A DNA stretch of 23,952 nt from IMG/VR virus record IMGVR_UViG_3300033144_003328, positions 1-23,952 of that record; one strand, 5' to 3'. The position numbers and the translations under genes are program-made. This document shows positions 2,562 to 23,952 of this stretch, one piece after another (position 1 is the first letter of the stretch; the number at the start of each line of letters is the position of its first letter). Origin of the DNA: a virus. The notes below the pieces were generated by a model. That model was not told the DNA's origin, did no database searches, and saw only the letters and a list, made by a program, of their open reading frames with translations.

Positions 2562-2893
2562 AAGAACCAAAGGGGAATAACAGACTGGGTTCGAAAGAAG
2601 ATGGACTCAAGCTGGATTGGGATTGGTATACGCCCGGGAAACCATCACAGGTCTGCCGAGCCCGGATAAAAGGGGACAGGGGATTTTTTTCTGCCTCAGT
2701 AGCGCAATGGTCAAAGTCTGCCGGGGAGGGTCAGTACGATAAGGAATATGATGCGTCGATTAAATATGTGGATGGAGTCCTCGGTTCCTCGGAAAAATTT
2801 TCGACGAGAATAGCCGCGCAGAGGGAAGCGGAAAGGATGTTCACCGAGTTCATCAACATGATGGGTGAGACATTTGCTAAGGTGGGAATATGA
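2558..2893 (+). CDS. Hypothetical protein upstream of terL (111 aa)
   Basis: A 111-residue soluble protein that I do not recognise. It is Lys/Asp-rich at the start, with a central beta-like part (SQVCRARIKGDRGFFSASVAQW region) and a helical C-terminus (residues about 83-108) with Arg/Glu pairs. There is no signal peptide or membrane segment. The start overlaps the DUF4031 stop (ATGA) with GGGAGG/GGCGGG-type purines upstream. The stop overlaps terL by four bases (ATGA, 2890-2893) with AAGGTGGGA before the terL start, so it is probably translationally coupled to terL. Single-strand-binding or packaging accessory roles are conceivable, but nothing in the sequence shows them. Confidence 0.7.
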   Translation: MKEPKGNNRLGSKEDGLKLDWDWYTPGKPSQVCRARIKGDRGFFSASVAQWSKSAGEGQYDKEYDASIKYVDGVLGSSEKFSTRIAAQREAERMFTEFINMMGETFAKVGI

Positions 2894-4416
2894 GTCAAGC
2901 CGCCCACAGGATTGACCCCTCCGCAATGCTGGACATGGTCCAGATAGAGAGGGAGCTGGGTCGGCGCTCGCTTCGACAATTCACCCGCCTGGCATGGGAC
3001 ACCGTTCAGCCCGGTCAGGGGGATGCAGATGAATTCGGAAGATACTGGGCGAGATGGGGTTGGCATCTGGATGCGGTATGTGACCACTTTGAAGCTTTTA
3101 TCCGGGGGGATATCCTTCGGCTCATCGTGAACATCCCACCTAGGTCAACCAAATCAACAGTCGGTTCGGTCTGCGCTCCGGTCTGGGGATGGATAGATAA
3201 TCCGGCGCTTCAATTCCTGACAGCATCCTATAGAGATGACCTCAGCACCAGGGATTCGGTCAGGTCGAGGCGGTTGATTCAATCCCCATGGTTTCAAGAC
3301 AGATGGGGCGAGGATAGTTTCACCCTCTGGTATGACCAGAACAGGAAGACCCGCTATGAGAATAACAAGGGAGGCCATCGAATCGCCCAGTCCGTAAGCG
3401 GGGGTTCCACCGGGGAAGGCGGAGACCGAATAATCGTGGATGACCCTCACAATGTGAAGAGGGCGGAATCTGATGTCGAGCGGCAGAATGCCATCGACTG
3501 GTGGGATGAGGAAATGCAATCCCGTTTGAACGACGCTCAGACCGGCGGCCTCTGCATTATCATGCAGAGGCTTCATGAAAGGGATTTGACTGGTCATGTT
3601 CTAAACAAGGAAGCAGGCTTCGTTCATCTGAAGCTCCCGATGAGACATGAGGTGGATGATAAGGGTCGTTCCTCTGGATGCATCACCACATGGCCGGGGT
3701 TCAGGTTTGAAGACCCAAGGACTATAGAGGGAGAGTCCCTTGACCCGAAGCGCTTCCCGGAACCCGCCATCGCCGATTTAGAAAAGAGAATGAATCCATA
3801 TGCCATTGCTGGTCAGTTGCAACAGAGACCAGCTCCTCGGAAGGGGGGTATGTTCGAAGTCGATTTGATTGAAATCGTCTCGGCTCCCCCCGCAGGCATA
3901 TCCCGGATGGTTCGATACTGGGATAAAGCCGGGACCGACCGAGCCGTGGCTAAAGCAACAGGGTCTCATACCGCGGGGCTCCTGATAGGAAAAATCACTG
4001 CCGGCATCTTCAAGGACCGATATATCTTCTTAGATGCTGTGCGGGGACAATGGAGTGCGGGCAAGAGAGAGCAGATTATCCGCTCAACGGCTGAAAAAGA
4101 TGGAAAAGGGGTAACCGTAGGGATAGAGCAAGAGCCGGGCTCTGGAGGGAAGGAGAGCGCGGAGGCTACGGTCAAGAATCTGGAAGGGTTCAAAAGTTAC
4201 ATAGATAGGGTCACCGGGGATAAGGAAACCAGAGCGGAACCAATGGCCTCCCAGATGATGGTAGGCAATTGCATGATGCTGAAAGCTGATTGGAATGACC
4301 AATTCATCCATGAGCTGAGGATGTTCCCGGTTGGAGCCCAGAAGGACCAGGTCGATGCGGCTAGCGGAGCATTCAATAAGTTGGCTTCGATGAGAGGGAA
4401 GAGGTTGACATGGTAG
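2890..4416 (+). CDS. terL: Terminase large subunit (packaging ATPase and nuclease)
   Basis: The motor protein that cuts concatemeric DNA and pumps it into the prohead through the portal. The ATPase half shows a Walker A-type segment NIPPRSTKST at about residues 81-90, a variant P-loop of the PPRxxKS type, and a Walker B segment RIIVDD at about 180-185. A coupling motif follows (IIMQRLHERDLTG, about 223-235). The C-terminal RNase H-like nuclease half shows the first acidic residue in YWDKAGTD (about 343-350), further acids around LDAV (about 381-384) and IEQEPGSGGK (about 412-421), and the late VDAASGAFN with its catalytic-type Asp near the end. At 508 residues it is of normal length. The ATG overlaps the previous stop and has GGTGGGA upstream. 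The portal follows after 10 bases, the usual order. Confidence 0.95.
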   Translation: MSQAAHRIDPSAMLDMVQIERELGRRSLRQFTRLAWDTVQPGQGDADEFGRYWARWGWHLDAVCDHFEAFIRGDILRLIVNIPPRSTKSTVGSVCAPVWGWIDNPALQFLTASYRDDLSTRDSVRSRRLIQSPWFQDRWGEDSFTLWYDQNRKTRYENNKGGHRIAQSVSGGSTGEGGDRIIVDDPHNVKRAESDVERQNAIDWWDEEMQSRLNDAQTGGLCIIMQRLHERDLTGHVLNKEAGFVHLKLPMRHEVDDKGRSSGCITTWPGFRFEDPRTIEGESLDPKRFPEPAIADLEKRMNPYAIAGQLQQRPAPRKGGMFEVDLIEIVSAPPAGISRMVRYWDKAGTDRAVAKATGSHTAGLLIGKITAGIFKDRYIFLDAVRGQWSAGKREQIIRSTAEKDGKGVTVGIEQEPGSGGKESAEATVKNLEGFKSYIDRVTGDKETRAEPMASQMMVGNCMMLKADWNDQFIHELRMFPVGAQKDQVDAASGAFNKLASMRGKRLTW

Positions 4417-4426
4417 AGGAGGAAAT

Positions 4427-5875
4427 ATGAGCAAGGAAAAGGTAGTCAATCTGAATGACTTGAGGACGCAGAACTCCTCATTCAGTCTTATCCGGGGGAT
4501 GCTCGCCAAAGCCCTTGGATTTGGCTTTCAAGGTCAACGGGATTTGTATACCGCTCTGGGATATACCAAGGAGCTGAAATTTGACAACTATATGTCGAAA
4601 TACAGCCGGCAGGATATCGCCAAAGCAGTCGTCGAAGCCCCCGTCCTTGAATCATGGAAGGATGCCCCGCTAGTTCTTGAGGTGAATGCGACCCGGAAGC
4701 AGGACGAGAAGGGGAGACCGGAGCCGAGCGACTTTGAGCAGAAGTGGAGGGAGCTGGCGGCGGATAAGCAACTCAAGCTCCTCCATTATCTATCCCGGGC
4801 GGATATCCTCTCTGGTATCGGGAGGTATGCCATCTTATATCTGGGACTCGATGGCCTCTCCGCGACTGAGGGTCCGAACAAGCCGGCGACCGGGAACAAG
4901 AAGCTCCTCTTCGTGACTCCCTTCTCCGAGGCGAATGCTAAAATCAAGTCTTATGTCAGCGACCAGGATAATCCGAGGTTCGGAAAGCCGGAGATGTATG
5001 AGGTGACCTTCGCCAATGCCGAAGCGACTGGAGCGGGAGGGGGAACTTCTACGATGCAGGTCCATTGGACCCGGACCATCCATATTTCCGAGGGGGCATT
5101 GGAGTCGGATATCTTCGGGACGCCTCGGCTGGAAGCTGTCTTCAATAGGCTCGATGATTTGGAGAAGGTGGTCGGTGGAAGTGGAGAGGCATTCTGGCAA
5201 CAGGGATTCCCCGGACTCCACTTCGATATCCGGGACGATGCTGATATCGATGACCAGACCCTCCCGGACCTGAAGGAGGCGACCGAGAAATATGTTCATC
5301 GATTGGAGCGGGTCATCAGAACGCAGGGGGTTGATGTCAAGACCCTGACCTCTCAGATAGCTGACCCCTCCAAGCTGGTCGCGGTTTATCTGGACCTGAT
5401 ATCCGGGACGACCCAGATTCCGAAGCGGGTGCTCATCGGTTCAGAGCGGGGAGAGCTTGCTTCGACTCAGGATGAGACCAGATGGGCGAAGAAGGTCACT
5501 ACCAGGAGGACCAACCATATCAATCCGAATATCCTTGACCAAGCTATCCTGCGGCTCATCGAGTTCGGGATTCTCCCGGCGCCCGGGGCCGAGGGGTGGA
5601 CGTATATCTGGCCCGACCTTTATGGCCCCTCGGATTCAGACAGGGCGGAGACCAACAAGAAGAGGACGGATGCTCTAGTCGCTTATGCAAATGCCCCTCA
5701 AGCCGACCGAGTGGTTCCCCTCTCCATCTTCCTTTCTGAGTATCAGGGATTGACCGAGGAGCAGGTGGCGAAAACAGAGGCGATACTCGATGAGGAAGGG
5801 AAACTCCTCCATGATGAGGATGAGGAGATAGATGAAGGGGATGTGCCCCCGTCACAAGGGGCTGTAGACATATAA
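4427..5875 (+). CDS. Portal protein (DUF1073 type)
   Basis: Forms the dodecameric ring at one capsid vertex through which DNA is packaged and released. The family is recognised from its N-terminal block (RDLYTALGYTKEL, about residues 38-50, then YSRQDIAKAVVEAP), the HWTRTIHIS segment in the middle, and the conserved stretch QIPKRVLIGSERGELAST (about 329-346) followed by WAKKVTT and a YIWPDLYGPSDSDRAE block. These are typical of DUF1073, whose Pfam name also mentions Acb1, but no Acb1-type phosphoesterase is visible here. The 482-residue length is normal for a portal and the C-terminus is acidic. The start has a near-perfect GAGGAGG ribosome site and stands 10 bases after terL. Confidence 0.9.
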   Translation: MSKEKVVNLNDLRTQNSSFSLIRGMLAKALGFGFQGQRDLYTALGYTKELKFDNYMSKYSRQDIAKAVVEAPVLESWKDAPLVLEVNATRKQDEKGRPEPSDFEQKWRELAADKQLKLLHYLSRADILSGIGRYAILYLGLDGLSATEGPNKPATGNKKLLFVTPFSEANAKIKSYVSDQDNPRFGKPEMYEVTFANAEATGAGGGTSTMQVHWTRTIHISEGALESDIFGTPRLEAVFNRLDDLEKVVGGSGEAFWQQGFPGLHFDIRDDADIDDQTLPDLKEATEKYVHRLERVIRTQGVDVKTLTSQIADPSKLVAVYLDLISGTTQIPKRVLIGSERGELASTQDETRWAKKVTTRRTNHINPNILDQAILRLIEFGILPAPGAEGWTYIWPDLYGPSDSDRAETNKKRTDALVAYANAPQADRVVPLSIFLSEYQGLTEEQVAKTEAILDEEGKLLHDEDEEIDEGDVPPSQGAVDI

Positions 5876-13702: not shown

Positions 13703-14007
13703 TGGGAATGGAATCTCACTTTCATCGGAAGCAACCGGTAGAGGCTTATACCATCACCGAGGACTTCGGGATGTATCGGCTGGAGAGCGCCGAGGGCATT
13801 ACCAGTCAAGTAGTCACGGCGGCGGATTCGGAGGGGAACGATGTGACCTCTTCTTTGCTTGGGAATATTTCCCGAGCGGATGACATTATCAGCATCCCCA
13901 TTCTGGCGAGTGGTGAGGACAGGTTCGATATCAAAATCGTTGTCACCACCGATGCCGATAGCATCTACGAGCAGGACTTGGTCTTGGAGGTAATCGACCG
14001 ACCATGA
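13702..14007 (+). CDS. Hypothetical small beta-rich protein (101 aa)
   Basis: An unrecognised 101-residue protein. Residues 14-60 alternate in a beta-like way with Thr/Ser/Val and the stretch DSEGNDVTSSLL. The end (FDIKIVVTTDADSIYEQDLVLEV) also looks like beta strands, so an Ig-like or fibre-accessory domain is plausible. The start overlaps the stop of the giant appendage gene (TAATG), with GGAGG seven bases upstream; a second ATG stands two codons later. The stop overlaps the next gene by four bases (ATGA). The tight coupling to the appendage gene suggests a partner or assembly factor for the appendage, but this is inference. Confidence 0.7.
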   Translation: MGMESHFHRKQPVEAYTITEDFGMYRLESAEGITSQVVTAADSEGNDVTSSLLGNISRADDIISIPILASGEDRFDIKIVVTTDADSIYEQDLVLEVIDRP

Positions 14008-14669
14008 GCGAGCGATGGCGAGGATACTGGGCGGCCTCTGAGATATGGAAAGACAGAGATGTCTTTATCATCGGGGGAGGTCCGTCCTTGAAGGAGATGG
14101 GGAGCCTCTCTTGCATCTGGCATCGCCCAGTCATCGGAGTGAACAATGCTTTTGAACTCGGCCCTTGGATTGATGTGATTTATTTCGGGGACAGGCCTTG
14201 GTGGAAGCGCCATGGGGTGAGAGCCCTTGCTCATCCCGGAATGATAGTCACAAGCTACAACTCAAGGAAGGGTCTGCTCCACCCAGATATAAAGACAATG
14301 GGCCGAGCGAATCGCCAGGGACTCCACTGGAGGTCCAATACTCAATTATGTTGGAATCGGAATAGCGGAGCATCCGCCATCAATCTCGCCTACCATTTCG
14401 GAGCGAGGAGAATCATCCTCCTCGGGTTCGATATGAAGAAGCGGGAGGGAGCCGGGAACCGGGGACATAATTGGCATGAATATCATGCTTCGTATAAAGC
14501 CCCCCGCGGAGATATCTACCAGAAGAAATTCCTCCCGGGTTTCAATATCATCAAGATGGATTTGGAGACCATAGAGAAGGAGACCGGGAGGAAGGTCGAG
14601 ATATTGAATGCGACTCCAGATAGCGACCTGGTCATCTTCCCCATGGTGGACTTGAGGGATGTGGCATGA
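14004..14669 (+). CDS. DUF115/MptE-like glycosyltransferase-type protein, copy 1 (221 aa)
   Basis: Shows the nucleotide- or sugar-nucleotide-binding start VFIIGGGPSL (about residues 20-29), then NNAFELGPW, IYFGDRPWW, the central SGASAINLAYHFGA and IILLGFDMK (about 140-149), and a NWHEYH segment. This order is found in DUF115 proteins, a group that includes the bacterial Maf flagellin glycosyltransferases and archaeal MptE-like enzymes. The GGGPSL motif also recalls GT42 sialyltransferases. It is clearly a paralogue of the protein at 19779-20435. It starts with ATGA overlap from the previous gene and its stop overlaps the Mu F-like gene. A sugar-transfer role is likely but the donor and acceptor are unknown; it lies directly downstream of the appendage gene pair. 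Confidence 0.8.
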   Translation: MSERWRGYWAASEIWKDRDVFIIGGGPSLKEMGSLSCIWHRPVIGVNNAFELGPWIDVIYFGDRPWWKRHGVRALAHPGMIVTSYNSRKGLLHPDIKTMGRANRQGLHWRSNTQLCWNRNSGASAINLAYHFGARRIILLGFDMKKREGAGNRGHNWHEYHASYKAPRGDIYQKKFLPGFNIIKMDLETIEKETGRKVEILNATPDSDLVIFPMVDLRDVA

Positions 14670-15598
14670 GCCAGATTGACCGAGTGCATAGAGCCCTGAC
14701 TAATCGGGACCCGACCCGAACCGTCACTCTGAGGAATGAGTTCATGGTGGATATGACTCGGAGGCTCAGGGCACATGCTCAAGATATCAAGACTTCGATT
14801 GTGGAATTTGATGTTCTGGGATTGAGGGGCCGGGAAGATATCCTCACCCTCGCCCCGGCTGACCCGGGGAGGTTCATTTATAAGACGACCGCCGAGAAGC
14901 TGGATGAGTTCATGGTCTGGCTCAAGGGCGAGCAGACCAAGGGCATCTTGGAAATCATCCAGACCGGGACGGGCCCGGAGCCTTGGACGAATACCTACAT
15001 CCGCTCGTCATATCAGAAGGGGATGGTCGAGGGGCGGGCTCAGCTGAGAGCGCTCGGGGTCGATGTTCCGATGGATACGATTCAGGGCGGAGGGATAGCC
15101 GGAGCTTTCCAGCAACCGATGAGAGCGGAGACGGCGGCCCTTCTCTATTCCAGAACCTACGAACAGCTGGTCGGAGTCACCGCAGATATGGACGCCGCCA
15201 TCTCTCGGGTCCTCTCTCAGGCAATCATCGAGGGGGTAGGTCCAGAGGAGGCGGCCCGAAGGTTGGCGAAGATAGAGGGCGTGGGAATCACCCGGGCTCG
15301 GCTCATCGCTCGGACAGAAATGGTCTACGCTTTCAATATGGGGGCGCTCACAGAATACGGAATGGCCGAAGGAATTATCGGCGAACAGATTTTTGTGAAG
15401 TGGATGACTGCCCGGGATGAGAGAGTCCGGAAGAAGGGCTTACGCAAATGGAATCATCTGCGCCGGCATGGGAAAATGTTCACTCAGGCGGACGGGATGA
15501 GTATGTTGGGAGACCCAAATTGTCGTTGCTTCTTGCCACCTTACATCCCGTCGATTCAGGGGGTGATGCCCCTCTCTCGGGCGGCTAATTTTAGGTAG
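14666..15598 (+). CDS. Minor head protein, phage Mu gpF-like (head morphogenesis)
   Basis: A minor capsid protein needed for prohead assembly in Mu, SPP1 (gp7) and relatives, usually encoded beside the portal. The family signature is in the C-terminal third: ITRARLIARTEMVYAFNMGAL (first residues about 210-219), then KWMTARDERVRKKG, HLRRHGKMF, and the closing GDPNCRCFLPP. The N-terminal 200 residues are helical. At 310 residues it has a normal length. The ATG overlaps the stop of the DUF115-like gene (ATGA at 14666-14669). It is unusual that about 9 kb, including the appendage gene, separates it from the portal. No ADP-ribosyltransferase or other fused domain is seen. Confidence 0.9.
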   Translation: MSQIDRVHRALTNRDPTRTVTLRNEFMVDMTRRLRAHAQDIKTSIVEFDVLGLRGREDILTLAPADPGRFIYKTTAEKLDEFMVWLKGEQTKGILEIIQTGTGPEPWTNTYIRSSYQKGMVEGRAQLRALGVDVPMDTIQGGGIAGAFQQPMRAETAALLYSRTYEQLVGVTADMDAAISRVLSQAIIEGVGPEEAARRLAKIEGVGITRARLIARTEMVYAFNMGALTEYGMAEGIIGEQIFVKWMTARDERVRKKGLRKWNHLRRHGKMFTQADGMSMLGDPNCRCFLPPYIPSIQGVMPLSRAANFR

Positions 15599-15942: not shown

Positions 15943-15997
15943 ATTAGATTTGTGTGGGCTAATAAGAATTCCGGGATATTACAAAAGGGGAATAGAC

Positions 15998-17635
15998 ATG
16001 AAACTGACAATGCTTACTGCGGAGACCCTCGACAGCTATACACCTACGATTCGTATCTTTGAAGGTCGACAGCATTTAGTGGCTCCGGTCATCATCTTGG
16101 TGGAGGGGGTTCATGCAGGAAGTCTGGGTCCGGTCTTCTACTCAGCGGATGAGCTATCCACCCATCCCTCCTCATGGAATGGAGTCCCGGTGACTATCCA
16201 CCACCCATCCGATGAGGAGGGCCGAGGACTCAGCGCTGGACATCCGGAAGTCATGGATGAGTTCATGGTCGGCAGATTGTTCAATACCATTTACGACCCG
16301 AGCCTCCCCGGACTCCGGAGCGAGATTTGGGTTGATATCCAGAGGTGCTCACAATTGAGCATGGAAGCCCTGGCCACTCTCCAGAAGGGACAGCCCTTGG
16401 AAGTGAGTACGGGTCTCTGGTTCGATGATGACGGAACGCCGGGAGAATGGTCGGGGGAGGAATTCCAGTTCTCCGCCGGCAACTTCAGACCAGACCATTT
16501 GGCTCTGCTCCCCGGCTCAGTAGGAGCCTGCTCCATCCAAGATGGTTGCGGGGTCCGGAATGAGGAGGAATCCAAGATGGAAGGAATCTGGGGAAAGGTC
16601 AAGAGCCTGACCTTTCACTTGCTCGGACTCAATAAGGCTGGGTTCAGTGAGGTGATGACCAAGCTTCAAGGCTTGGTGGATGCTCTTGACAAGGATGTGC
16701 CGGGAGGTCGGCTCATCCATTATCTGGTCGATGCATTTGATGATGGCTCCTTCATCATGCAACAGGTCGGGGGTCCGGATGGGAGGAGATTTTATCAGGG
16801 CTCTTTTCTCAAGGACGATGAAGGAATGCCCACAGACTTAGCCGAGGATTTTACCGAGGTCGAAGAACGCAGGGAATTCGTCCCCGCTGGGAATGAGGAA
16901 GGTGATGGTCGGTCCATTTCCAATGGGGCATCATGGAGCAAGGGGAACTTGCCCTGCGAATCATCCTCCACTCAGGAGGTAGATATAGAAGTGGAAACCA
17001 TTAACAAGGAGGAGAGCGAGATGAAAGCCAAAGAGACTTTGGTATCGACGCTCATCGCCTGTGGGAAAGTTCGCTGGTCGGAGAACGACCGGGAATATCT
17101 CATGACGCAGGAAATGGAGATGCTCGAAAAGCTCCAGCCTGCAGATGAGGTAATCCCCCCGGTCGAAGAACCGGCGGTCGAGCTTTCTGCGGATGAGTGG
17201 GTCAAGGATGCTCCCTCCGCCGTCAGGGATATGCTGGAGGACGGACTGCGACTCCATCGTGAGAAGCGGACCTCCCTCATCGGAACCATCATGACGGCGA
17301 AGGGTAATTCCTTTACCGAGGAACAGCTGGACTCGAAGGACACTTCCGAACTGGAAGCCATCTCCAATCTGACTTCACCGGCCCCGGCCGAGGGAGAAGG
17401 AGAAGGAGAGGGCGAAGGGGATGGGACTGGTACTTCCGGGGCCCCGGCTGAAGAAGCGAGCGGCGAAGGCGGTGAAGGTGAGCCGACCGGGAATGAGGGG
17501 GTTAAGCCTCTGGAACTTCCCACTGCTCAGAATTATCAGGGGAGCACTGCTCCCCCCTCCAATACGGAAGGAGAGGCAGTCGAGCCTTTGGCCCGGCCCA
17601 CCCTTAACGACCAGGTCGGAGACACCACCCACTAA
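15998..17635 (+). CDS. DUF2213-type prohead protease with C-terminal scaffold-like part (545 aa)
   Basis: The N-terminal domain (to about residue 190) matches DUF2213-type head maturation proteins: WNGVPVTIHHPSD (60-72) with a His pair, EFMVGRLFN, SEIWVDIQ, EVSTGLWF (135-142) with a candidate catalytic Ser137, and FRPDHLALLPGSVGACSIQDG (163-183). A small middle domain follows (about 200-300: VDAFDDGSFIM, RRFYQGSF, REFVP). The C-terminal third is helical and strongly acidic with a Glu-Gly run (about 468-478), typical of scaffolds. ATG 15998 is chosen for its AAAGGGG site; the frame extends to 15950 without one. Two internal in-frame ATGs (16577, 17021) each have a strong ribosome site 8 bases upstream. 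The protease likely cleaves scaffold and capsid protein during maturation. Confidence 0.8.
   Translation: MKLTMLTAETLDSYTPTIRIFEGRQHLVAPVIILVEGVHAGSLGPVFYSADELSTHPSSWNGVPVTIHHPSDEEGRGLSAGHPEVMDEFMVGRLFNTIYDPSLPGLRSEIWVDIQRCSQLSMEALATLQKGQPLEVSTGLWFDDDGTPGEWSGEEFQFSAGNFRPDHLALLPGSVGACSIQDGCGVRNEEESKMEGIWGKVKSLTFHLLGLNKAGFSEVMTKLQGLVDALDKDVPGGRLIHYLVDAFDDGSFIMQQVGGPDGRRFYQGSFLKDDEGMPTDLAEDFTEVEERREFVPAGNEEGDGRSISNGASWSKGNLPCESSSTQEVDIEVETINKEESEMKAKETLVSTLIACGKVRWSENDREYLMTQEMEMLEKLQPADEVIPPVEEPAVELSADEWVKDAPSAVRDMLEDGLRLHREKRTSLIGTIMTAKGNSFTEEQLDSKDTSELEAISNLTSPAPAEGEGEGEGEGDGTGTSGAPAEEASGEGGEGEPTGNEGVKPLELPTAQNYQGSTAPPSNTEGEAVEPLARPTLNDQVGDTTH
17021..17635 (+). CDS. Possible nested scaffold protein, internal start in the protease gene (204 aa)
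   Basis: An in-frame ATG at 17021 (Met342 of the long protein) has AAGGAGG at 17006-17012, an ideal ribosome site with 8 bases spacing. Translation from here would give an acidic, mostly helical protein of 204 residues with a Glu/Gly-rich low-complexity stretch and a Pro-rich tail, the composition expected of a scaffold. The layout copies phage lambda, where scaffold Nu3 starts inside protease gene C. The caution is that Lys-Glu-Glu codons (AAG GAG GAG) create the ribosome site by chance. A second internal start at 16577 (Met194, GAGGAGG upstream) is also possible. Confidence 0.4.
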   Translation: MKAKETLVSTLIACGKVRWSENDREYLMTQEMEMLEKLQPADEVIPPVEEPAVELSADEWVKDAPSAVRDMLEDGLRLHREKRTSLIGTIMTAKGNSFTEEQLDSKDTSELEAISNLTSPAPAEGEGEGEGEGDGTGTSGAPAEEASGEGGEGEPTGNEGVKPLELPTAQNYQGSTAPPSNTEGEAVEPLARPTLNDQVGDTTH

Positions 17636-17681: not shown

Positions 17682-18140
17682 ATGGCGAGCAACAAAACAG
17701 TTGTGGTTCGGGGAGATGTCCAGAGGGAGGAGTTCAAGACCAATGGGACTCCCTCCCCCGGGCACCTGCTCGAAATCGACAGCAGTGGCGATGTTCTCCC
17801 TCACAACTCGGCGGGGGAGAACATGTACCCCCTCTTCGCCCTTGAGAACGATTTGCAAGGGGATGACATTGATACCGCTTATGCGGACAATGTTCAGGCC
17901 CAGTGCGCTTGGGCGAAGCCGGGCGTGATGGTGAATGCCATCCTCGCTGATGGAGAAAATGTAGCCATCGGCGACCTGCTGGAAAGCGCGGGAGATGGAA
18001 CTCTCCAGAAGTATGTTCTGGATGATTCCAGCACCGTGCATTACTCGAACCAGATTGTCGGAGTTGCGAGGGAAGCTGTGGACATGAGTGATTCGTCCGC
18101 CGCCGACCCCGCTGGCCGCGTTCTGGTTTCCATTATCTAA
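17682..18140 (+). CDS. Putative capsid decoration or stabilising protein (152 aa)
   Basis: A small acidic protein between protease and major capsid protein, the standard position of a head decoration protein. Visible pattern: SPGHLLEIDSSGDVLPHNSAG (first residues about 25-45), FALENDLQGDDIDTAY (about 52-67), PGVMVNAILADGENVAIGD, then LLESAGDGTLQKY and a last strand GRVLVSII. These Gly/Asp turns are typical of small beta-rich proteins that sit on the capsid surface in similar phages. AGGAGG stands 8 bases before the ATG. The capsid gene follows after 9 bases with its own AGGAGG. There is no trimerisation motif that I can name, so the family assignment is from context and pattern. Confidence 0.75.
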   Translation: MASNKTVVVRGDVQREEFKTNGTPSPGHLLEIDSSGDVLPHNSAGENMYPLFALENDLQGDDIDTAYADNVQAQCAWAKPGVMVNAILADGENVAIGDLLESAGDGTLQKYVLDDSSTVHYSNQIVGVAREAVDMSDSSAADPAGRVLVSII

Positions 18141-18149
18141 GGAGGGGGC

Positions 18150-19169
18150 ATGGACCTTTTAGTGCAAGGTAACAACATCGCCGAACGCCTCCTCGCCTCC
18201 GGGATGGACCCGGGAGCGCTCCGCCCTTGGGTGGAGCCTGATGGCAAGGCGTACGTCAACATCAACGGAGTCGCGCGGCCCATCGCGAATGGGACTCTCC
18301 GGAAGGATGAGTGGATTCAGTATGATACCGCCATCGTCCGGGCGACTCGGGACCGGCTGGTCTATACCAATTATCTGATTGGGAAGGGGCTGGTCTACAA
18401 TATCGAGGGCATGAGCAAGACGGTTCTTGAGACCGAGAACCTGAATGACATGACCGACGCCGAGCTGACCATGGACGGCGTCAACAGGGCGGACAAAGAC
18501 CGGGCGAACTTCGAACTGGTTGGAATCCCCCTCCCCATCACTCACAAGGAGTTCACCCTCTCCAGCCGGGTTCTCAATATCTCCCGGACGACTGGACAGG
18601 CTCTGGACACCACCCAGTCCGAACAGGCCTCTCGGAAGGTCGCCGAGAAAATCGAGGAAATCCATATCAACGGAACCTCGAACTACAAGGCCGCTGGGTA
18701 CACCCTCTATGGGATTACCGATTTCCCGAGCGTGAACACCGGCTCTCTCTCAGTGAACTGGGATGCCTCCGCCGCTACAGGCGAGACCATTCTGGCTCAG
18801 GTTCTGGAGATGAAGCAGGTTCTTCTCGACGACGGGTTCTACGGACCCTTCGTGCTTCTGGTCCCGGGCAACTACGAGACCAAGCTCGATGAGGACTTCA
18901 AGGCCCAGTCCGACCTGACCATCCGCCAGCGGCTGGCTCAGATTTCGGGTATCTCTGATATCCTCGTTCTCGACCGCCTGGCAGATGATACGGTGGTCCT
19001 CCATCAACTCTCGACCGATGTCATCCGGGTAGTCAACGGCCTCGCCGTCACGACTCTCCAGTGGGATGAGGTTGGCGGCCTTGAGCTTAATTTCAAGGTC
19101 ATGGGCATTCAGGTTCCGCAGGTGCGCGCGGACCAGGGTGGAAACTGCGGGATTGTGGTCTATTCGTAA
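18150..19169 (+). CDS. Major capsid protein, encapsulin-like HK97 fold (339 aa)
   Basis: The main shell subunit. It lacks a long N-terminal scaffold (delta) region and instead resembles the encapsulin/linocin-type capsid proteins: IQYDTAIVRATRDRL (about 51-65), a hairpin-like arm, LPITHKEFTLSSRVL, the long helix with SEQASRKVAEKIEEIHINGTS (first residues about 158-167), YTLYGITDF, then GPFVLLVPGNYET, TIRQRLAQISGISDILVLD, and a late block QWDEVGGLELNFKVMGIQVP typical of HK97-fold P/A-domain strands. The start has AGGAGG 5-6 bases upstream. The absence of a delta domain agrees with a separate scaffold, perhaps the nested product of the protease gene. A 137-base gap with a strong hairpin follows. 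High copy expression is expected. Confidence 0.85.
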   Translation: MDLLVQGNNIAERLLASGMDPGALRPWVEPDGKAYVNINGVARPIANGTLRKDEWIQYDTAIVRATRDRLVYTNYLIGKGLVYNIEGMSKTVLETENLNDMTDAELTMDGVNRADKDRANFELVGIPLPITHKEFTLSSRVLNISRTTGQALDTTQSEQASRKVAEKIEEIHINGTSNYKAAGYTLYGITDFPSVNTGSLSVNWDASAATGETILAQVLEMKQVLLDDGFYGPFVLLVPGNYETKLDEDFKAQSDLTIRQRLAQISGISDILVLDRLADDTVVLHQLSTDVIRVVNGLAVTTLQWDEVGGLELNFKVMGIQVPQVRADQGGNCGIVVYS

Positions 19170-19178
19170 AATCCCGTC

Positions 19179-19200
19179 TATGCACGCTCAGTTGCGCTCT
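19179..19200 (+). repeat. Copy 2 of the capsid-flanking element
   Basis: Aligns to 15670-15691 with one substitution and two single-base indels. It forms the left arm of the hairpin at 19185-19273, whose right arm is the inverted third copy. Confidence 0.6.
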
Positions 19201-19273
19201 AAGGGCATTGGGGGGTACGTCCCCCCCTTGCCCTTCACCTAGGGCCGAAAGTGTCTGAGAGCCAAGCTGAGCG
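19185..19273 (+). other. Large nested hairpin after the capsid gene (terminator, RNA element or site)
   Basis: CGCTCAG (19185-19191) pairs with CTGAGCG (19267-19273), TTG (19192-19194) with CAA (19263-19265) and GCTCT (19196-19200) with AGAGC (19258-19262), giving a 15-bp stem with two single-base bulges. Inside is a second stem: GGGCA (19203-19207) with TGCCC (19229-19233) and six G (19210-19215) against C (19221-19227) around a TACGT loop. No T-run follows, so a classic intrinsic terminator is not certain. It fills the gap between the capsid gene and the next gene. Confidence 0.6.
19253..19273 (-). repeat. Copy 3 of the capsid-flanking element, inverted
   Basis: Reverse complement agrees with 15676-15696 at 18 of 21 positions, including the core CGCTCAGNTTGGCTCT. 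Together with copy 2 it makes the arms of the hairpin. Confidence 0.65.
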
Positions 19274-19306
19274 AGTCGTGGAATATTAGGAGAAAGGCGG
19301 ATTGAA

Positions 19307-19795
19307 ATGAAAGTGGAACGCTGGAAGAAGGTTTTCGGGAAGCATCACGCTTTTGAAGATGGGGTCAAAAAGATTTATGGCCCCGGTCAAGAGGATGGTG
19401 ATATCGTGACATTTCCCGCTGGCCAAGGACCGAAGGAAAGCCCCTCATGGCTTTTGATTGAGGGAGCCGGAGTGGAAGTCCTTGATTTCGAAAATGGGCC
19501 CGTGGTAAAAGCTCTGGGTCGGGGATGGTTCAATGTCATCAATCCTGAGACCGGGAAGCCCATCAACACCGTCAAGCTCCGGAGAGCTGATGCCGATGCA
19601 TTAGCCGAGGAGTGGGAGGCGGACAACGAGAACGATGATGACCCGGAGGGCGGCGAGGAAGAGCCGGTCTGTCCCGTCGAGGATGGAACCTTCGGGGAGG
19701 ATTTCGAAGACTATGACGAATGCGCCGAGTGCGAATTCGCCGTGGCCTGCGAAGCCAAAGAAAACGAGGATGATGGGGATGGCAAAGAAGGATAA
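19307..19795 (+). CDS. Acidic protein with a C-terminal Cys cluster (162 aa)
   Basis: The N-terminal 100 residues are mixed alpha/beta and include SWLLIEGAGVEVLDF (about 47-61) and WFNVINPETGKPI. Then come a very acidic run (about 104-118) and a tail with four Cys: a CPVEDGTFGEDFEDYDEC block followed by AEC and VAC, a pattern of the C-x(n)-FG-x-D-x(n)-C-x2-C-x5-C kind seen at the ends of some phage and DNA-binding proteins and likely zinc-binding. The ribosome site is AGAAAGGCGG upstream of ATG 19307. Its end overlaps the next gene by 17 bases. It is the first gene after the hairpin, so it may start a separate transcript or depend on read-through. Function unknown. Confidence 0.75.
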   Translation: MKVERWKKVFGKHHAFEDGVKKIYGPGQEDGDIVTFPAGQGPKESPSWLLIEGAGVEVLDFENGPVVKALGRGWFNVINPETGKPINTVKLRRADADALAEEWEADNENDDDPEGGEEEPVCPVEDGTFGEDFEDYDECAECEFAVACEAKENEDDGDGKEG

Positions 19796-20435
19796 AGACC
19801 GGACCTTCTGGTCTGCTCCCCCGATGTGGAAAGGGGAGACCGTCTTCATCATTGGAGGGGGTCCATCTCTTCTGGATTTGGACCTCACTCCTATTCACTC
19901 CAGAGCCGTGCTCGGTTGCAATAATGCTTTCGAGCTTGGACCTTGGGTGGATGTCACATATTTCGGGGACAAGCCTTGGTGGTTCTGGAATCAAGACAAG
20001 CTCCTGAAGTATTCCGGATTGATAGTCACCAGCAATGACGATGAGTTCTTTGAAGCGAATCCCAGAATCAAGGTGATGCGGAGGGAGATGCGATTTGGTA
20101 TCTCCAAGAATCCGAGCCGGGTTTGTTGGAATAAGAACACCGGGGGCTCCTCCATCAACCTAGCTGTTCATTTCGGAGCCAAGCGAATCGTGCTCCTCGG
20201 ATTCGACATGAAGGTCTCAGATAATGGGAGGGCCGGGAACTGGGGACATAACTGGCATGATAATCATAAACCCCACAAGGGCCACAAGCCGACTATCTAC
20301 CAAAAGAATATGCTCCCCCATTTCGTTCCTATCAAGAAGGTCTTGGACGAGCTGGGGATTGAGTGCATAAATGCCAACATGGGTAGCGCCCTTGAGATAT
20401 TCCAGAAGATTCCGCTTGAGGAGGTGCTCGGATGA
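19779..20435 (+). CDS. DUF115/MptE-like glycosyltransferase-type protein, copy 2 (218 aa)
   Basis: A paralogue of 14004-14669 with the same order of motifs: VFIIGGGPSLL (about residues 22-32), CNNAFELGPW, TYFGDKPWW, CWNKNTGGSSINLAVHFGAK, IVLLGFDMK and NWHDNH, but differing in the middle part. The motifs fit DUF115 proteins, which include Maf-type flagellin glycosyltransferases. The frame is open upstream to 19635, but that part lies inside the previous gene. I choose ATG 19779 because GAGG stands 9 bases before it and the length then equals the first copy; ATG 19770 and 19773 are alternatives. The stop overlaps the next gene (ATGA). It begins the sugar-modification cassette. Confidence 0.8.
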   Translation: MAKKDKDRTFWSAPPMWKGETVFIIGGGPSLLDLDLTPIHSRAVLGCNNAFELGPWVDVTYFGDKPWWFWNQDKLLKYSGLIVTSNDDEFFEANPRIKVMRREMRFGISKNPSRVCWNKNTGGSSINLAVHFGAKRIVLLGFDMKVSDNGRAGNWGHNWHDNHKPHKGHKPTIYQKNMLPHFVPIKKVLDELGIECINANMGSALEIFQKIPLEEVLG

Positions 20436-21118
20436 ATTATGTAGTCACCGTCCTCAAGAGCGGGGGAGTTTATCTCCCGGAGCATGTTGGGATTTTGAGC
20501 AGGAATGTCGCTCAGCATATGAGCACCCCATTTGAATTTGTGGTGCTCACAGATTTGGGAGCTGAGAGATGGACCAACGGATTGGTCAGCGCCGCTGATA
20601 TCATCGTCCCTCTGGAGCACGACTGGCCGGGATGGTGGAGCAAGATAGAATTGTTCCGACCGGGGATGCCATGGGATGGGATGGACAAAGTTTTGTATCT
20701 GGATTTGGATACTCAGATTGTTGGAGATATCAGCCACTTCTTTTCCCATGCTCTTCCATTCATTATGCTCAAATCCTTCCGGTCGAGGAGATGGGCATCC
20801 GGAGTGATGGGATGGACGGGGGCCGCTCCTCGGAGACCATATCGTCGGTTCTTGCATGGGCCGGGGGATTTCATAAGGAAGAATCGCAGGGCAGGAGACC
20901 AGAAGTTCATCATGGACTCTATGGAGGGAAAGGCCGAGCCAGCATTCTGGCAGGAGATATTCCCAGAGCAGGTCGTGAGTTATAAAAGGCATTGCCGCGG
21001 AGCAAATGGAAAAGGGGGAAGTCCCCCGGCTAAGGCGAGGGTGGTTTGCTTTCATGGGAAGCCCCGTCCTTGGCATGCAAGTGAGAAATGGATACAGGAG
21101 GTTTGGCAGAATGGATAG
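20432..21118 (+). CDS. Glycosyltransferase with DxD motif, GT8-like (228 aa)
   Basis: A GT-A type sugar transferase. The N-terminal NYVVTVLKSGGVYLPEHV is followed by FEFVVLTD, WWSKIELFRP (about 68-77) and the metal/nucleotide-sugar motif VLYLDLDTQI (about 87-96) with DxD at 91-93. Later come GVMGWTG, DQKFIMD, VVSYKRHCRG and VVCFHGKPRPWHA, the order seen in small GT8-like phage and bacterial enzymes. The donor sugar cannot be told. The ATG overlaps the stop of the DUF115-like gene (ATGA). The 3' end overlaps the radical SAM gene by 8 bases and carries its ribosome site (CAGGAGG), so the two are translationally coupled. Confidence 0.85.
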   Translation: MNYVVTVLKSGGVYLPEHVGILSRNVAQHMSTPFEFVVLTDLGAERWTNGLVSAADIIVPLEHDWPGWWSKIELFRPGMPWDGMDKVLYLDLDTQIVGDISHFFSHALPFIMLKSFRSRRWASGVMGWTGAAPRRPYRRFLHGPGDFIRKNRRAGDQKFIMDSMEGKAEPAFWQEIFPEQVVSYKRHCRGANGKGGSPPAKARVVCFHGKPRPWHASEKWIQEVWQNG

Positions 21119-22073
21119 ACTCTTGAGTTACTCGGCCGCTTCAATCTTTCCCGCTAAGGTTCTGCGGAAATTGACGGGACTCTTCAATGGGGGGAAGCTC
21201 CGCCCTATTCACCCACAGATTAGTCTGACCAATGAGTGTAATCTGGATTGTGATTTCTGCTCATGTGCCGGGAGGAGGGATGGAGAATACCTCCCCATCG
21301 AAAAGGCGGTCGAGATAATCTGGGCTCTGGAGAGATGCGGGACCCAAGCGATTACCATCACCGGGGGAGGCGAGCCCCTGATGCATCCGGACTTTGAGGA
21401 GTTCGTGAATTTTGTCGGCCGCCGGCATATCAAGATGGGGCTGGTGACAAATGGATACTTGCTCCCGAAGATTTCCCCGGAGGCTATATCCCAGATGACT
21501 TGGTGTCGGGTCTCGGCTTCCGATGACCGGAACATCCCCCTCCTTCTTGAGAAGGTGGCGGAGGCGGCTCGGAAATCCCCCCGGGTGGACTGGGCCTTTA
21601 GCTATGTGGTGACCATCGACTTCGACCCGGAGAAATTAGCGGAGATTATCAGGACGGCGAATGATTTGAAGTTCACCCATGTCCGAGTAGTCGCTGACCT
21701 GGTCGACCTTTATAATCCCCCGGACATGGGGGAGGTCATGACCGAGATTCGGGGGATGGATGTTGATGACAAGCTGGTCATCTATCAGGGGCGGAAGAAA
21801 TTCACCCGGGGGTCGGCGAAGTGCCTCATCTCCCTGATTAAGCCCTTGATAGGGTCTGATGGGAATGTCTATCCCTGTTGCGGGGTTCAATATGCTTTGA
21901 TGGATTCCTCCCTTGATTTCGATTCCCGGATGTGTATGGGGGAGGACATTGAGAAGATATCCATCCAGCAAGATTACTTCGATGGGAGCATCTGCGACCG
22001 ATGTTATTATCGACAATACAATGATGCCCTCTCCCATATCATCAGCCCGCTCGACCATGAGGAGTTCGTTTGA
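21111..22073 (+). CDS. Radical SAM enzyme with C-terminal Cys motif (320 aa)
   Basis: Generates a 5'-deoxyadenosyl radical from S-adenosylmethionine with a [4Fe-4S] cluster. The cluster motif is CNLDCDFC (Cys43, 47, 50), followed by ITGGGEPLMHPDF (about 83-95), the GGE-type motif for SAM binding, and LVTNGYLL. Near the C-terminus DGNVYPCCG and CDRCYYRQY give a SPASM-like set of cysteines for an auxiliary cluster. Such proteins modify peptides, sugars or nucleotide-linked substrates; the substrate here is unknown. ATG 21111 is chosen with CAGGAGG nine bases upstream; the frame is open back to 21006 inside the glycosyltransferase gene. The stop overlaps the next start (TGATG). The position suggests sugar or virion-protein modification. 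Confidence 0.85.
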   Translation: MDRLLSYSAASIFPAKVLRKLTGLFNGGKLRPIHPQISLTNECNLDCDFCSCAGRRDGEYLPIEKAVEIIWALERCGTQAITITGGGEPLMHPDFEEFVNFVGRRHIKMGLVTNGYLLPKISPEAISQMTWCRVSASDDRNIPLLLEKVAEAARKSPRVDWAFSYVVTIDFDPEKLAEIIRTANDLKFTHVRVVADLVDLYNPPDMGEVMTEIRGMDVDDKLVIYQGRKKFTRGSAKCLISLIKPLIGSDGNVYPCCGVQYALMDSSLDFDSRMCMGEDIEKISIQQDYFDGSICDRCYYRQYNDALSHIISPLDHEEFV

Positions 22074-22675
22074 TGCTGAGCGAAAATTTCTGGGAGGGGA
22101 AGCATACCGAGGAGGATATGTCTTGGCTGACGGTATCCAACCTTGGACACTATCTGCTCTTCTTTGATTTGAAGGGAGCGGAGATTGAAACCCATCGCGT
22201 GCTAGAAATAGGAGTCGGACTTTGTGTCGCTACGGCTCATCTCAAAAAGTTGGTGGGGGATTTATGGACGGTGGATGTCGCCCCGAGTGCTATCAGGCGA
22301 GCCCGGGGGATAGTCAAGAAGAATCAGTCTCTCCATGTGGAGCAGGCGCTGGAACTTCCGGCGGGTTATTTTGATGTGGCTTTTTCTTATGCGGTCGTTC
22401 AGCATTTGGGCGATGTGGAGCTGGAGCATCAATTGGATTATGTCCTCCGGGCTCTAACGCCTGAAGGAATATTTGCGGTCCAGTTCCTGACCGAAAAAGG
22501 GACTTCGGATGGGATGCGGACCAAGGGTGGAGTTTCCATCAGCAGGACCCCCGCTTATTTCCAACAGATTGTCGAGGGGGTTCATGGAAAGGTCATCAAG
22601 ATGGCGAAGCCTCTTCAGGCGAAGAAGCACCCGGATATAAAATGGAATGGGTTCATTGTAGGGAGAGCGGCATGA
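22073..22675 (+). CDS. SAM-dependent methyltransferase, class I, first of two (200 aa)
   Basis: A Rossmann-type methyltransferase. Motif I is VLEIGVGLC (about residues 43-51), the acidic end of strand 2 is WTVDVAPSA (about 65-73), and motif IV-like FDVAFSYAVVQHL stands near 103-115. The later LTPEGIFAVQFL is typical of UbiE/Methyltransf_11 proteins. The N-terminal FWEGKHTEEDMSWL resembles sugar- or lipid-linked methyltransferases in glycan clusters. ATG 22073 is used with GAGGAG 8 bases upstream and a TGATG overlap with the radical SAM stop; a TTG three bases earlier is less likely. The stop overlaps the next methyltransferase (ATGA). The acceptor is unknown; a sugar hydroxyl or carboxyl is plausible from context. 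Confidence 0.85.
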   Translation: MLSENFWEGKHTEEDMSWLTVSNLGHYLLFFDLKGAEIETHRVLEIGVGLCVATAHLKKLVGDLWTVDVAPSAIRRARGIVKKNQSLHVEQALELPAGYFDVAFSYAVVQHLGDVELEHQLDYVLRALTPEGIFAVQFLTEKGTSDGMRTKGGVSISRTPAYFQQIVEGVHGKVIKMAKPLQAKKHPDIKWNGFIVGRAA

Positions 22676-23172
22676 ACCCCTGCCCATCCCCCAGACTCCG
22701 GAACTTCCTCGCCAGAGAAGTCAAGAAGGGATACTCGGTTCTTGATTTGGGATGCGGGACCAAATGGTATTGGCCGGCTTTCAAGAATCGGGCTTCGGTC
22801 ATAGTGGGGGTGGATGCTCATCGTCCCTTCGACCCTTGCTTGCTTGTGGATATGGAAAAGGATGATTTGCCGGTCGCTGATAAGTCTTTCGATGTGGTTC
22901 TCATGCTGGACTTCATCGAGCATCTGAGCCGGGAGACAGGGGAGAGAGTCCTAGCCCATGCCAAGAGGATAGTCCGGGAGAAGATAATCCTGCTCACCCC
23001 GCTCCTCTGGGATGATAATGCTTCCAATGTGGAAGACCCAAAGAGCGAATATTTCGGGAATGGTTTTGACTATCACAAAAGCCTCTGGACGGTGAGGGAT
23101 TTTGAAGGATGGCAGCGGTCGATGCTATGGCCGGGGGACAAAAGATATCTGGGGATATGGAGACCGACATGA
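22672..23172 (+). CDS. SAM-dependent methyltransferase, class I, second (166 aa)
   Basis: A short class I methyltransferase: motif I VLDLGCGTKWYWP (about residues 23-35), acidic strand-2 end IVGVDAHRPFDP (about 44-55), then DDLPVADKSFDVVLMLDFIEHL (DD at about 64-65) and a strand IILLTPLLWDDN. The C-terminal part is compact (HKSLWTVRDFEGW, IWRPT). ATG 22672 is chosen since GGGAGA is five bases upstream and overlaps the previous stop (ATGA); the frame runs open back to 22642 within the earlier gene. It is smaller than usual, lacking extra substrate-binding insertions. It shares no close similarity with the first methyltransferase beyond the fold motifs, so it is not a recent duplicate. Probably a second modification step on the same product. 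Confidence 0.85.
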   Translation: MNPCPSPRLRNFLAREVKKGYSVLDLGCGTKWYWPAFKNRASVIVGVDAHRPFDPCLLVDMEKDDLPVADKSFDVVLMLDFIEHLSRETGERVLAHAKRIVREKIILLTPLLWDDNASNVEDPKSEYFGNGFDYHKSLWTVRDFEGWQRSMLWPGDKRYLGIWRPT

Positions 23173-23906
23173 TTTTCAGTTTCTTGATGCCATACTTTGA
23201 CCGGGCTGAGCAATTGGGCAGGACGCTGGAGAGCTTCCGATTTTTATATGGACCGACTGTCCAGTATGAAGTCGTCTTGGTCGAGGATAAGAAGAATTGG
23301 TCGAATGCCCGACTCACTGATGCCCTGACTAATGTTCTTGATGAGTTCCCAGATATCATCGTGAACCGAATCCCTTCCCATCATGAGGGATACAATCCGG
23401 CCCCTCATTATAATCAGGCGGCCAGATTGGCAAAGGGAGATTACCTGGTCATCACGAATCCGGAGTGCCGGCATAAGCAAAATATTCTGGGAGGGCTGGC
23501 GAACGAGTTTTCCTCTGACCCAGATTGCTATGTGGTCTGTGGGTGTATTAGTATCCGGGGCGGAGAGTTCCATCGATGGTTCCAGCATTCGGAACATCAC
23601 AATCGGCTCTTCCATTTCTGCTCTGCCATGAGTGCTAAGACCTATCAGAAGGTTGGGGGATTCGATGCGGCTTTCGGAGATGGGTTTGGATTCGACGACG
23701 ATGACTTCCGGGACACGATTCTTGAATCTGGTATCCGGATAGTTACTCGGGACGACCTGATTGTCTTTCATCAGGAGCACACCAAGAATTCGGTTCCGGG
23801 GTATGGGAATCTCCATGGTCGGAATAAGAAGCTGTGGCTGAGCAAGCATCCAAATCGAGCCAGATGGCTAAAACCAAATTGGAAAAGGGAGACTTTCAAT
23901 GTCTGA
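23169..23906 (+). CDS. GT2-like glycosyltransferase (245 aa)
   Basis: A GT-A fold transferase. N-terminal FSFLMPYFDRAEQLGRTLES is the typical GT2 opening, followed by YEVVLVEDK (about 33-41), PHYNQAARLAKGDYLVITNPEC (HYNQAARLAK at about 79-88), where NPEC stands where GT2 enzymes have DxD. Then CSAMSAKTYQKVGGFDAAF and FGFDDDDFRDTI (about 186-197) resemble the C-terminal galactosyltransferase-like region with its acidic motif, and VFHQEH ends the core. ATG 23169 overlaps the previous stop (ATGA) with GGAGA five bases before; ATG 23157 is an alternative. The stop overlaps the next gene by 8 bases. Donor and acceptor unknown. Confidence 0.85.
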   Translation: MIFSFLMPYFDRAEQLGRTLESFRFLYGPTVQYEVVLVEDKKNWSNARLTDALTNVLDEFPDIIVNRIPSHHEGYNPAPHYNQAARLAKGDYLVITNPECRHKQNILGGLANEFSSDPDCYVVCGCISIRGGEFHRWFQHSEHHNRLFHFCSAMSAKTYQKVGGFDAAFGDGFGFDDDDFRDTILESGIRIVTRDDLIVFHQEHTKNSVPGYGNLHGRNKKLWLSKHPNRARWLKPNWKRETFNV

Positions 23907-23952
23907 ACCCATTTTAGTTACCGGAGCGGCCCGGAGCGGGACGAGCTTGACC
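23899..23952 (+). CDS. Sulfotransferase-like P-loop protein, N-terminal part (runs off the right edge)
   Basis: The first 18 residues are visible: MSEPILVTGAARSGTSLT. The G-x-x-RSGTS loop is the phosphosulfate-binding loop of PAPS-dependent sulfotransferases; a P-loop kinase is less likely because the Lys of GxxGxGKS is missing. The ATG lies inside the end of the GT2-like gene (8-base overlap), continuing the coupled cassette. If right, the phage glycan or another acceptor would also be sulfated. Only the N-terminus can be judged. Confidence 0.65.
   Translation, partial: MSEPILVTGAARSGTSLT

Follow-up and report, generated by a model that had tools for sequence, protein, structure and literature searches.

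We analysed a 23,952-base stretch of viral DNA, the whole of IMG/VR contig IMGVR_UViG_3300033144_003328 (hereafter referred to as the window), and focused on an island of sugar-modifying genes 3' of its major capsid protein gene. The island comprises six complete genes and a truncated seventh (19779-23952), all on the plus strand, with an overlap of 4-8 nt at each junction (Table 1). The initial annotation had placed a sugar-modification island within a phage structural operon, on the strand of the capsid gene, and this is confirmed by the genes and their positions; Pfam and PHROG profile searches revealed that the window carries a tailed-phage head module. Profile matches, together with the GT8 fold described below, also bore out the naming of a DUF115-like transferase, a DxD glycosyltransferase, a radical S-adenosylmethionine (SAM) enzyme, two methyltransferases and a GT2-like transferase. 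The description of seven consecutive overlapping genes holds for the six complete ones, while the seventh is present as 18 codons cut off by the contig end.

The 18 residues of this seventh gene (MSEPILVTGAARSGTSLT) are identical at 13 of 18 positions to a gene of the related contig L053 (16909-17619). Given that 18 codons do not permit a sulfotransferase call from the window itself, the sulfotransferase-like assignment rests on full-length relatives, which occupy the corresponding place and match Sulfotransfer_3 or Sulfotransfer_4. The first loop for binding 3'-phosphoadenosine-5'-phosphosulfate lies within the window fragment, and both the 5'-phosphosulfate and the 3'-phosphate regions were recognised by eye in the full-length relatives. 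The radical SAM protein carries the cluster motif CNLDCDFC and extra C-terminal cysteines of the SPASM/twitch kind, and its nearest solved sequences (8wm2 and cytosylglucuronate decarboxylase) align over the core domain only. The second methyltransferase matched the model of the mycofactocin oligosaccharide methyltransferase MftM (2e-8, far under the cut-off of that model), and the GT2 protein had no match among phage isolates.

Table 1 Positions of the island genes, followed by the other features of the window
Feature	Position	Strand	Evidence or remark
Putative DUF115 glycosyltransferase, predicted Maf-like and GT42-like fold	19779-20435	+	phrog_4603 2e-33; structure model
Predicted GT8-fold glycosyltransferase, DxD motif (DLD, residues 91-93)	20432-21118	+	phrog_1962 2e-41; structure model
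Radical SAM enzyme, CxxxCxxC motif	21111-22073	+	PF04055 3e-15
Class I methyltransferase 1	22070-22675	+	Methyltransf_11 4e-10
Class I methyltransferase 2	22672-23172	+	Methyltransf_11 4e-10
GT2/GT7C-like glycosyltransferase	23169-23906	+	Glycos_transf_2 1e-9; Glyco_transf_7C 9e-6
Sulfotransferase-like gene, first 18 codons, ended by contig end	23899-23952	+	full-length relatives
Small protein, 162 aa	19307-19795	+	between capsid and island
Major capsid protein, left anchor of the island	18150-19169	+	PF19774 DUF6260 4e-27; phrog_771 virion structural protein 3e-30
Terminase large subunit	2890-4416		head module
Portal	4427-5875		head module
Repetitive protein, 1916 aa	7952-13702		between portal and head morphogenesis genes
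Second DUF115 gene	14004-14669	+	phrog_4603 1e-36; outside island
Head morphogenesis	14666-15598		head module
Protease-like protein	15950-17635		head module
Small head-associated protein	17682-18140		head module

Fixed ends and exchanged interior of the island

Alignment-based searches of viral contigs identified at least 549 relatives of the GT8 protein, at least 388 of the capsid and at least 311 of the sulfotransferase-like protein. A scan with the radical SAM protein as a single query returned none, while the alignment-based scan did find relatives of it. The capsids of island-bearing relatives are 41-55% identical to that of the window. We compared the interval between the capsid and head-tail connector genes across 52 non-redundant contigs, all anchored on the capsid and extending to the connector, and found DUF115 in 44, GT8 in 36 and sulfotransferase genes in 36 (all three in 30, none in 7), so that the cassette lies at this position in 45/52. 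DUF115 came first in 42 of the 45 non-empty islands and the sulfotransferase last in 35, whereas only ~0.3 kb separates capsid from connector at the empty sites. The remaining intervals of the structural operon, which served as a control, were short and nearly free of DUF115, GT8 and sulfotransferase families; the main exception was the one between connector and closure genes, where 6 DUF115 genes occur. Two contigs (L034 and L078) have a capsid-connector site without cassette families and carry GT8-, DUF115- and methyltransferase-type genes between the head morphogenesis and protease genes, which may represent an alternative cassette site.

Both sides of the island are contained in L053, where the order is capsid, small protein, DUF115, GT8, radical SAM, two likely transferases, a DUF4254-like gene, methyltransferase, a Sulfotransfer_2-type gene, GT2/GT7C, cupin and connector, followed by a second DUF115, a sulfotransferase-like gene and then the head closure, neck and major tail genes (for several of these genes the family was assigned in L093, which is near-identical). 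In the majority of the other islands, the sulfotransferase-like gene lies immediately 5' of the connector. The minimal island (L036) consists of a DUF115-GT8 fusion in one frame, then a sulfotransferase gene and the connector.

A clean cassette swap is seen between L191 and L197, whose capsid, small protein, DUF115, terminal sulfotransferase, connector, closure and neck proteins are 76-100% identical, and whose interiors share no recognisable homology except for weakly similar GT8 and sulfotransferase genes. We relied on this pair only, since a broader pairwise analysis relating capsid identity to shared islands was partly spoilt by contig-end capsid fragments. The radical SAM type of island found in the window also occurs in six further contigs (L129, L261, L093, L053, L175 and L132; radical SAM identity 28-51%). 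On a capsid tree, built quickly and with many weak branches, this type requires at least 5 changes and island presence only 2, which indicates that the island is old in the lineage; a recent insertion in the window contig is ruled out on the same ground.

Pfam searches of 148 interior proteins yielded methyltransferases, radical SAM enzymes, GT2, short-chain and zinc dehydrogenases, thiamine pyrophosphate (TPP) enzymes, epimerases, hexapeptide proteins, sulfotransferases and proteins resembling GT29, a sialyltransferase family known chiefly from animals. Five interior proteins matched GT29, and several matched TPP-dependent E1/transketolase enzymes and zinc dehydrogenases; these proteins suggest, at the level of sequence families, that sugars may be synthesised de novo in the phages. 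Together, the fixed ends and the exchanged content between them suggest a sugar locus that is resident in the lineage and whose middle part can be swapped. We found no earlier description in open papers of a capsid-connector island built in this way.

The profile searches returned the expected families rather than unrelated ones, and the gene-order search recovered sets of this kind at the corresponding position in further phage contigs, not confined to bacterial polysaccharide loci; thus neither of the two outcomes that the initial annotation had named as counting against the island was observed. An origin as a cluster taken from a bacterial polysaccharide locus is rejected because dozens of viral contigs carry this kind of block flanked by phage head genes, and the genome-collection matches of the capsid query were phage structural loci themselves.

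Predicted folds and candidate acceptors

The DUF115 protein matched PF01973 (MptE-like) under the curated cut-off (E 4e-5), and its PHROG family, phrog_4603, is annotated as 'alpha-2,3-sialyltransferase'. Its structure model (predicted local distance difference test, pLDDT, 93.5) is closest to the Maf flagellin glycosyltransferase (Z 14.8 over 191/218 residues), followed by CstII (Z 12.4) and CstI (Z about 12) and then MptE (Z 10.9); CstII was also reached by a sequence profile search (E 2e-4). The model thus assigns the protein a GT42/Maf fold. Its residues D64, D143 and H160 are invariant across 62 sequences. MptE is a pterin pyrophosphokinase, and the DUF115 fold is therefore found in a pyrophosphokinase too. 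Maf proteins, as described in PMC11339370, attach nonulosonic acids to Ser/Thr of flagellin. The 218-aa phage protein has this fold in common with Maf but corresponds to the DUF115-type core only of a 632-aa enzyme.

The neighbouring enzyme matched Pfam GT8 at an E value of only 0.02, and its family was confirmed by the fold. According to its model (pLDDT 92.8), the protein has a GT-A fold of the GT8 type with a DxD motif; the nearest structures are Skp1-galactosyltransferase (6mw5, Z 17.9) and glycogenin (Z 17.8), an enzyme that glucosylates itself, with LgtC and GlyE tied or close behind. A profile search from the protein reached glycogenin (2.5e-7) and aligned DLD with DAD, and across 54 sequences D91 is conserved in at least 90% and D93 in 100%. 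In Xanthomonas phage XacN1 (L009, 7335-8651) and Stenotrophomonas phage RAS14 (L012, 6335-7651), the GT8 domain is joined to an extra N-terminal domain of ~200 aa, which is methyltransferase-like in appearance.

The second DUF115 protein of the window is 51% identical to the island copy. Its gene is preceded by the gene for the 1916-aa repetitive protein and one small gene, and followed by the head morphogenesis gene. The 1916-aa protein consists of 20% Ser+Thr and contains many ILTADA/ISLTADA-like repeats. A DUF115 gene also lies 3' of a large tail protein gene in phage CcrColossus. In the simplest account, DUF115 would prime a sugar on a virion protein, GT8 and GT2 would extend it and the remaining enzymes would tailor it.

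The small protein encoded between capsid and island had no match in Pfam or PHROG. Its residues 67-101 correspond to a C-terminal domain of ~36 residues in relatives (consensus TVKHRGGGWYDVVNEATGKPINEKALRKEEAEELLE), which was present in 63/71 island-bearing and 0/10 empty sites (Fisher P = 2e-8), and DUF115 was the next annotated gene after a domain-bearing small protein in 97/105 cases. This association is not phylogenetically independent and reduces to 2 independent contrasts, so it serves as a lead rather than proof; the domain was not seen in other DUF115-bearing lineages. The window copy contains 3.7% Ser+Thr, which speaks against a densely O-glycosylated acceptor and makes an adaptor role just as likely as an acceptor role.

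A putative virion glycan and its alternatives

The best reading of these data, which we consider probable, is that the island is an exchangeable pathway decorating a virion protein with a methylated and probably sulfated glycan. The island would be a resident cassette of this tailed-phage lineage, fixed between the capsid gene (with the small protein gene) and the head-tail connector gene, and is probably expressed together with the late structural genes. DUF115 and GT8 may attach and extend a sugar and GT2 extend it further, a scheme that is putative beyond the fold assignments, while the radical SAM enzyme, the two methyltransferases and the sulfotransferase may tailor the sugar or its precursor. 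Candidate acceptors are the capsid, the small post-capsid protein or, for the second DUF115 protein, the repetitive fibre-like protein. The outcome would be a variable coat on the particles, presumably of benefit to the phage; masking of the phage from host defence, which the initial annotation had suggested as a possible role, is likewise putative.

The position of the cassette, its fixed ends, the DUF115-GT8 fusion of the minimal island, the L191/L197 swap and the sugar-enzyme interiors all count for this reading, as do the placement of DUF115 genes after the capsid and a small gene in phage D3 and after a large tail protein gene in CcrColossus. A virion protein is favoured as acceptor, and seems the likelier target, because Maf, glycogenin and Skp1-galactosyltransferase act on proteins or protein-bound sugars, because the enzymes are soluble and because of the gene position. 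Membrane-like segments were predicted in 8/412 island proteins and in none of those of the window. We regard a narrower version only as a tentative possibility, in which the locus is dedicated to virion O-glycosylation and resembles a serotype locus: a Maf-like DUF115 protein would prime, exchangeable enzymes would build a phage-specific methylated or sulfated glycan, coats would be swapped by recombination between the fixed ends, and the small post-capsid protein would perhaps act as acceptor or adaptor.

Several points weigh against a virion glycan. The glycan, its acceptor and the activities are so far predicted from sequence, and the sulfotransferase matches of the relatives of the truncated seventh gene are modest (E 1e-3 to 6e-7). 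In addition, LgtC, a lipooligosaccharide GT8 enzyme, is nearly as good a fit to the GT8 model as glycogenin, and the GT42 enzyme CstII, which fits the DUF115 model, also acts on lipooligosaccharide. These close structural matches favour the main rival explanation, in which the island acts during infection to alter the host surface (lipopolysaccharide, capsule or wall glycan), perhaps to block superinfection or to keep new particles from sticking to debris. Similarly, the hypervariable host recognition cluster of pelagimyophages is large, non-syntenic and located in the structural region, contains GT8 and radical SAM cassettes, and has been interpreted as serving host recognition and host O-chain modification (PMC7029224); it differs in belonging to T4-like phages, in lying between VrlC and the neck gene gp14 and in having tail fibre genes mixed in (PMC7029224). 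However, the islands show no evident flippase, polymerase or undecaprenyl-phosphate transferase, their proteins are nearly all soluble, the neighbours of the genes are late head genes and not early genes or those for lysogenic conversion, and DUF115 finds its best match in a protein glycosyltransferase. We therefore consider a host-surface target unlikely, if still the strongest competitor. Gtr-type serotype conversion was rejected in view of the lack of membrane proteins among the island proteins of the window, the right end of the island lying beyond it.

The widely different interiors of relatives would also suit auxiliary metabolic or moron genes that gathered at a tolerant spot and form no single pathway, and the P1 homologues pmgO and pmgQ are non-essential under laboratory conditions (PMC10695390). 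Such an assemblage is improbable given that the same few families recur, the ends and order are fixed, fusions link the families and genes of other kinds are seldom carried along. In DNA hypermodification, glycosyltransferases and radical SAM enzymes of phages are known as well. A sugar placed on phage DNA as protection from nucleases, for which phage DNA glycosylation is cited in PMC12619734, is nevertheless very improbable here, as the folds are those of protein and glycan transferases, the genes lie within a structural operon, and thymidylate synthase/hydroxymethylase (PF00303) was found in 1/20 long records of the lineage, some of which may be fragments.

Known systems, lineage and flanking features

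Phage particles are usually regarded as bare protein. In mycobacteriophages, glycosyltransferases are likewise encoded by the phage, the glycans on capsid and tail tube proteins are established and the acceptor is proven (Freeman et al. 2023, as reported in PMC12619734 and PMC12691614). The island of the window differs in being a cassette-exchanged, multi-enzyme tailoring set with radical SAM, methyltransferase and sulfotransferase genes, and its virion acceptor is a candidate. Homologues of the first two island enzymes occur in one cluster of P1 (pmgO, DUF115; pmgQ, GT8), where PmgQ is 33% identical to the GT8 protein of the window, and as an adjacent DUF115-GT8 pair in Citrobacter phage phiNP; orf7 of D3 is the DUF115 gene mentioned above. 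In contrast to the island, no radical SAM, extra glycosyltransferase or sulfotransferase genes were seen beside the homologues of P1, D3 and phiNP. Podophage ctQWt234 (MW202801) carries a block of capsid, small gene, radical SAM, glycosyltransferase, PhyH, methyltransferase, NodB-like and glycosyltransferase genes, but without an annotated DUF115 or sulfotransferase gene and with a radical SAM protein only ~27% identical. We found no functional study of PmgQ, HdmD or sulfotransferase islands in the open literature. If the lineage, with hundreds of environmental relatives, has a serotype-like coat locus, variation of the virion surface by cassette exchange becomes testable, and a function would be suggested for the unexplained DUF115/GT8 genes of P1 (pmgO, pmgQ) and D3 (orf7).

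Directly 3' of the capsid gene, a strong RNA fold (19165-19310, z -4.0) includes a perfect-looking hairpin near 19200-19240. This fold could act in RNA processing or attenuation and so reduce the expression of the genes 3' of it. Scans for promoters and terminators did not clearly delimit an operon. The lineage of island-bearing phages is almost entirely uncultured. An integrase was found in 2/20 long records; signs of lysogeny are thus missing from most members, though the records may be incomplete. One member with a DUF115-GT8 island (L265; CP070742.1, 3148653-3169624) lies in a 3.7-Mb Candidatus Zixiibacteriota chromosome record; its closest integrase matches are ~60-70 kb away and its prophage status is unproven, and it offers Candidatus Zixiibacteriota as a possible host lead.

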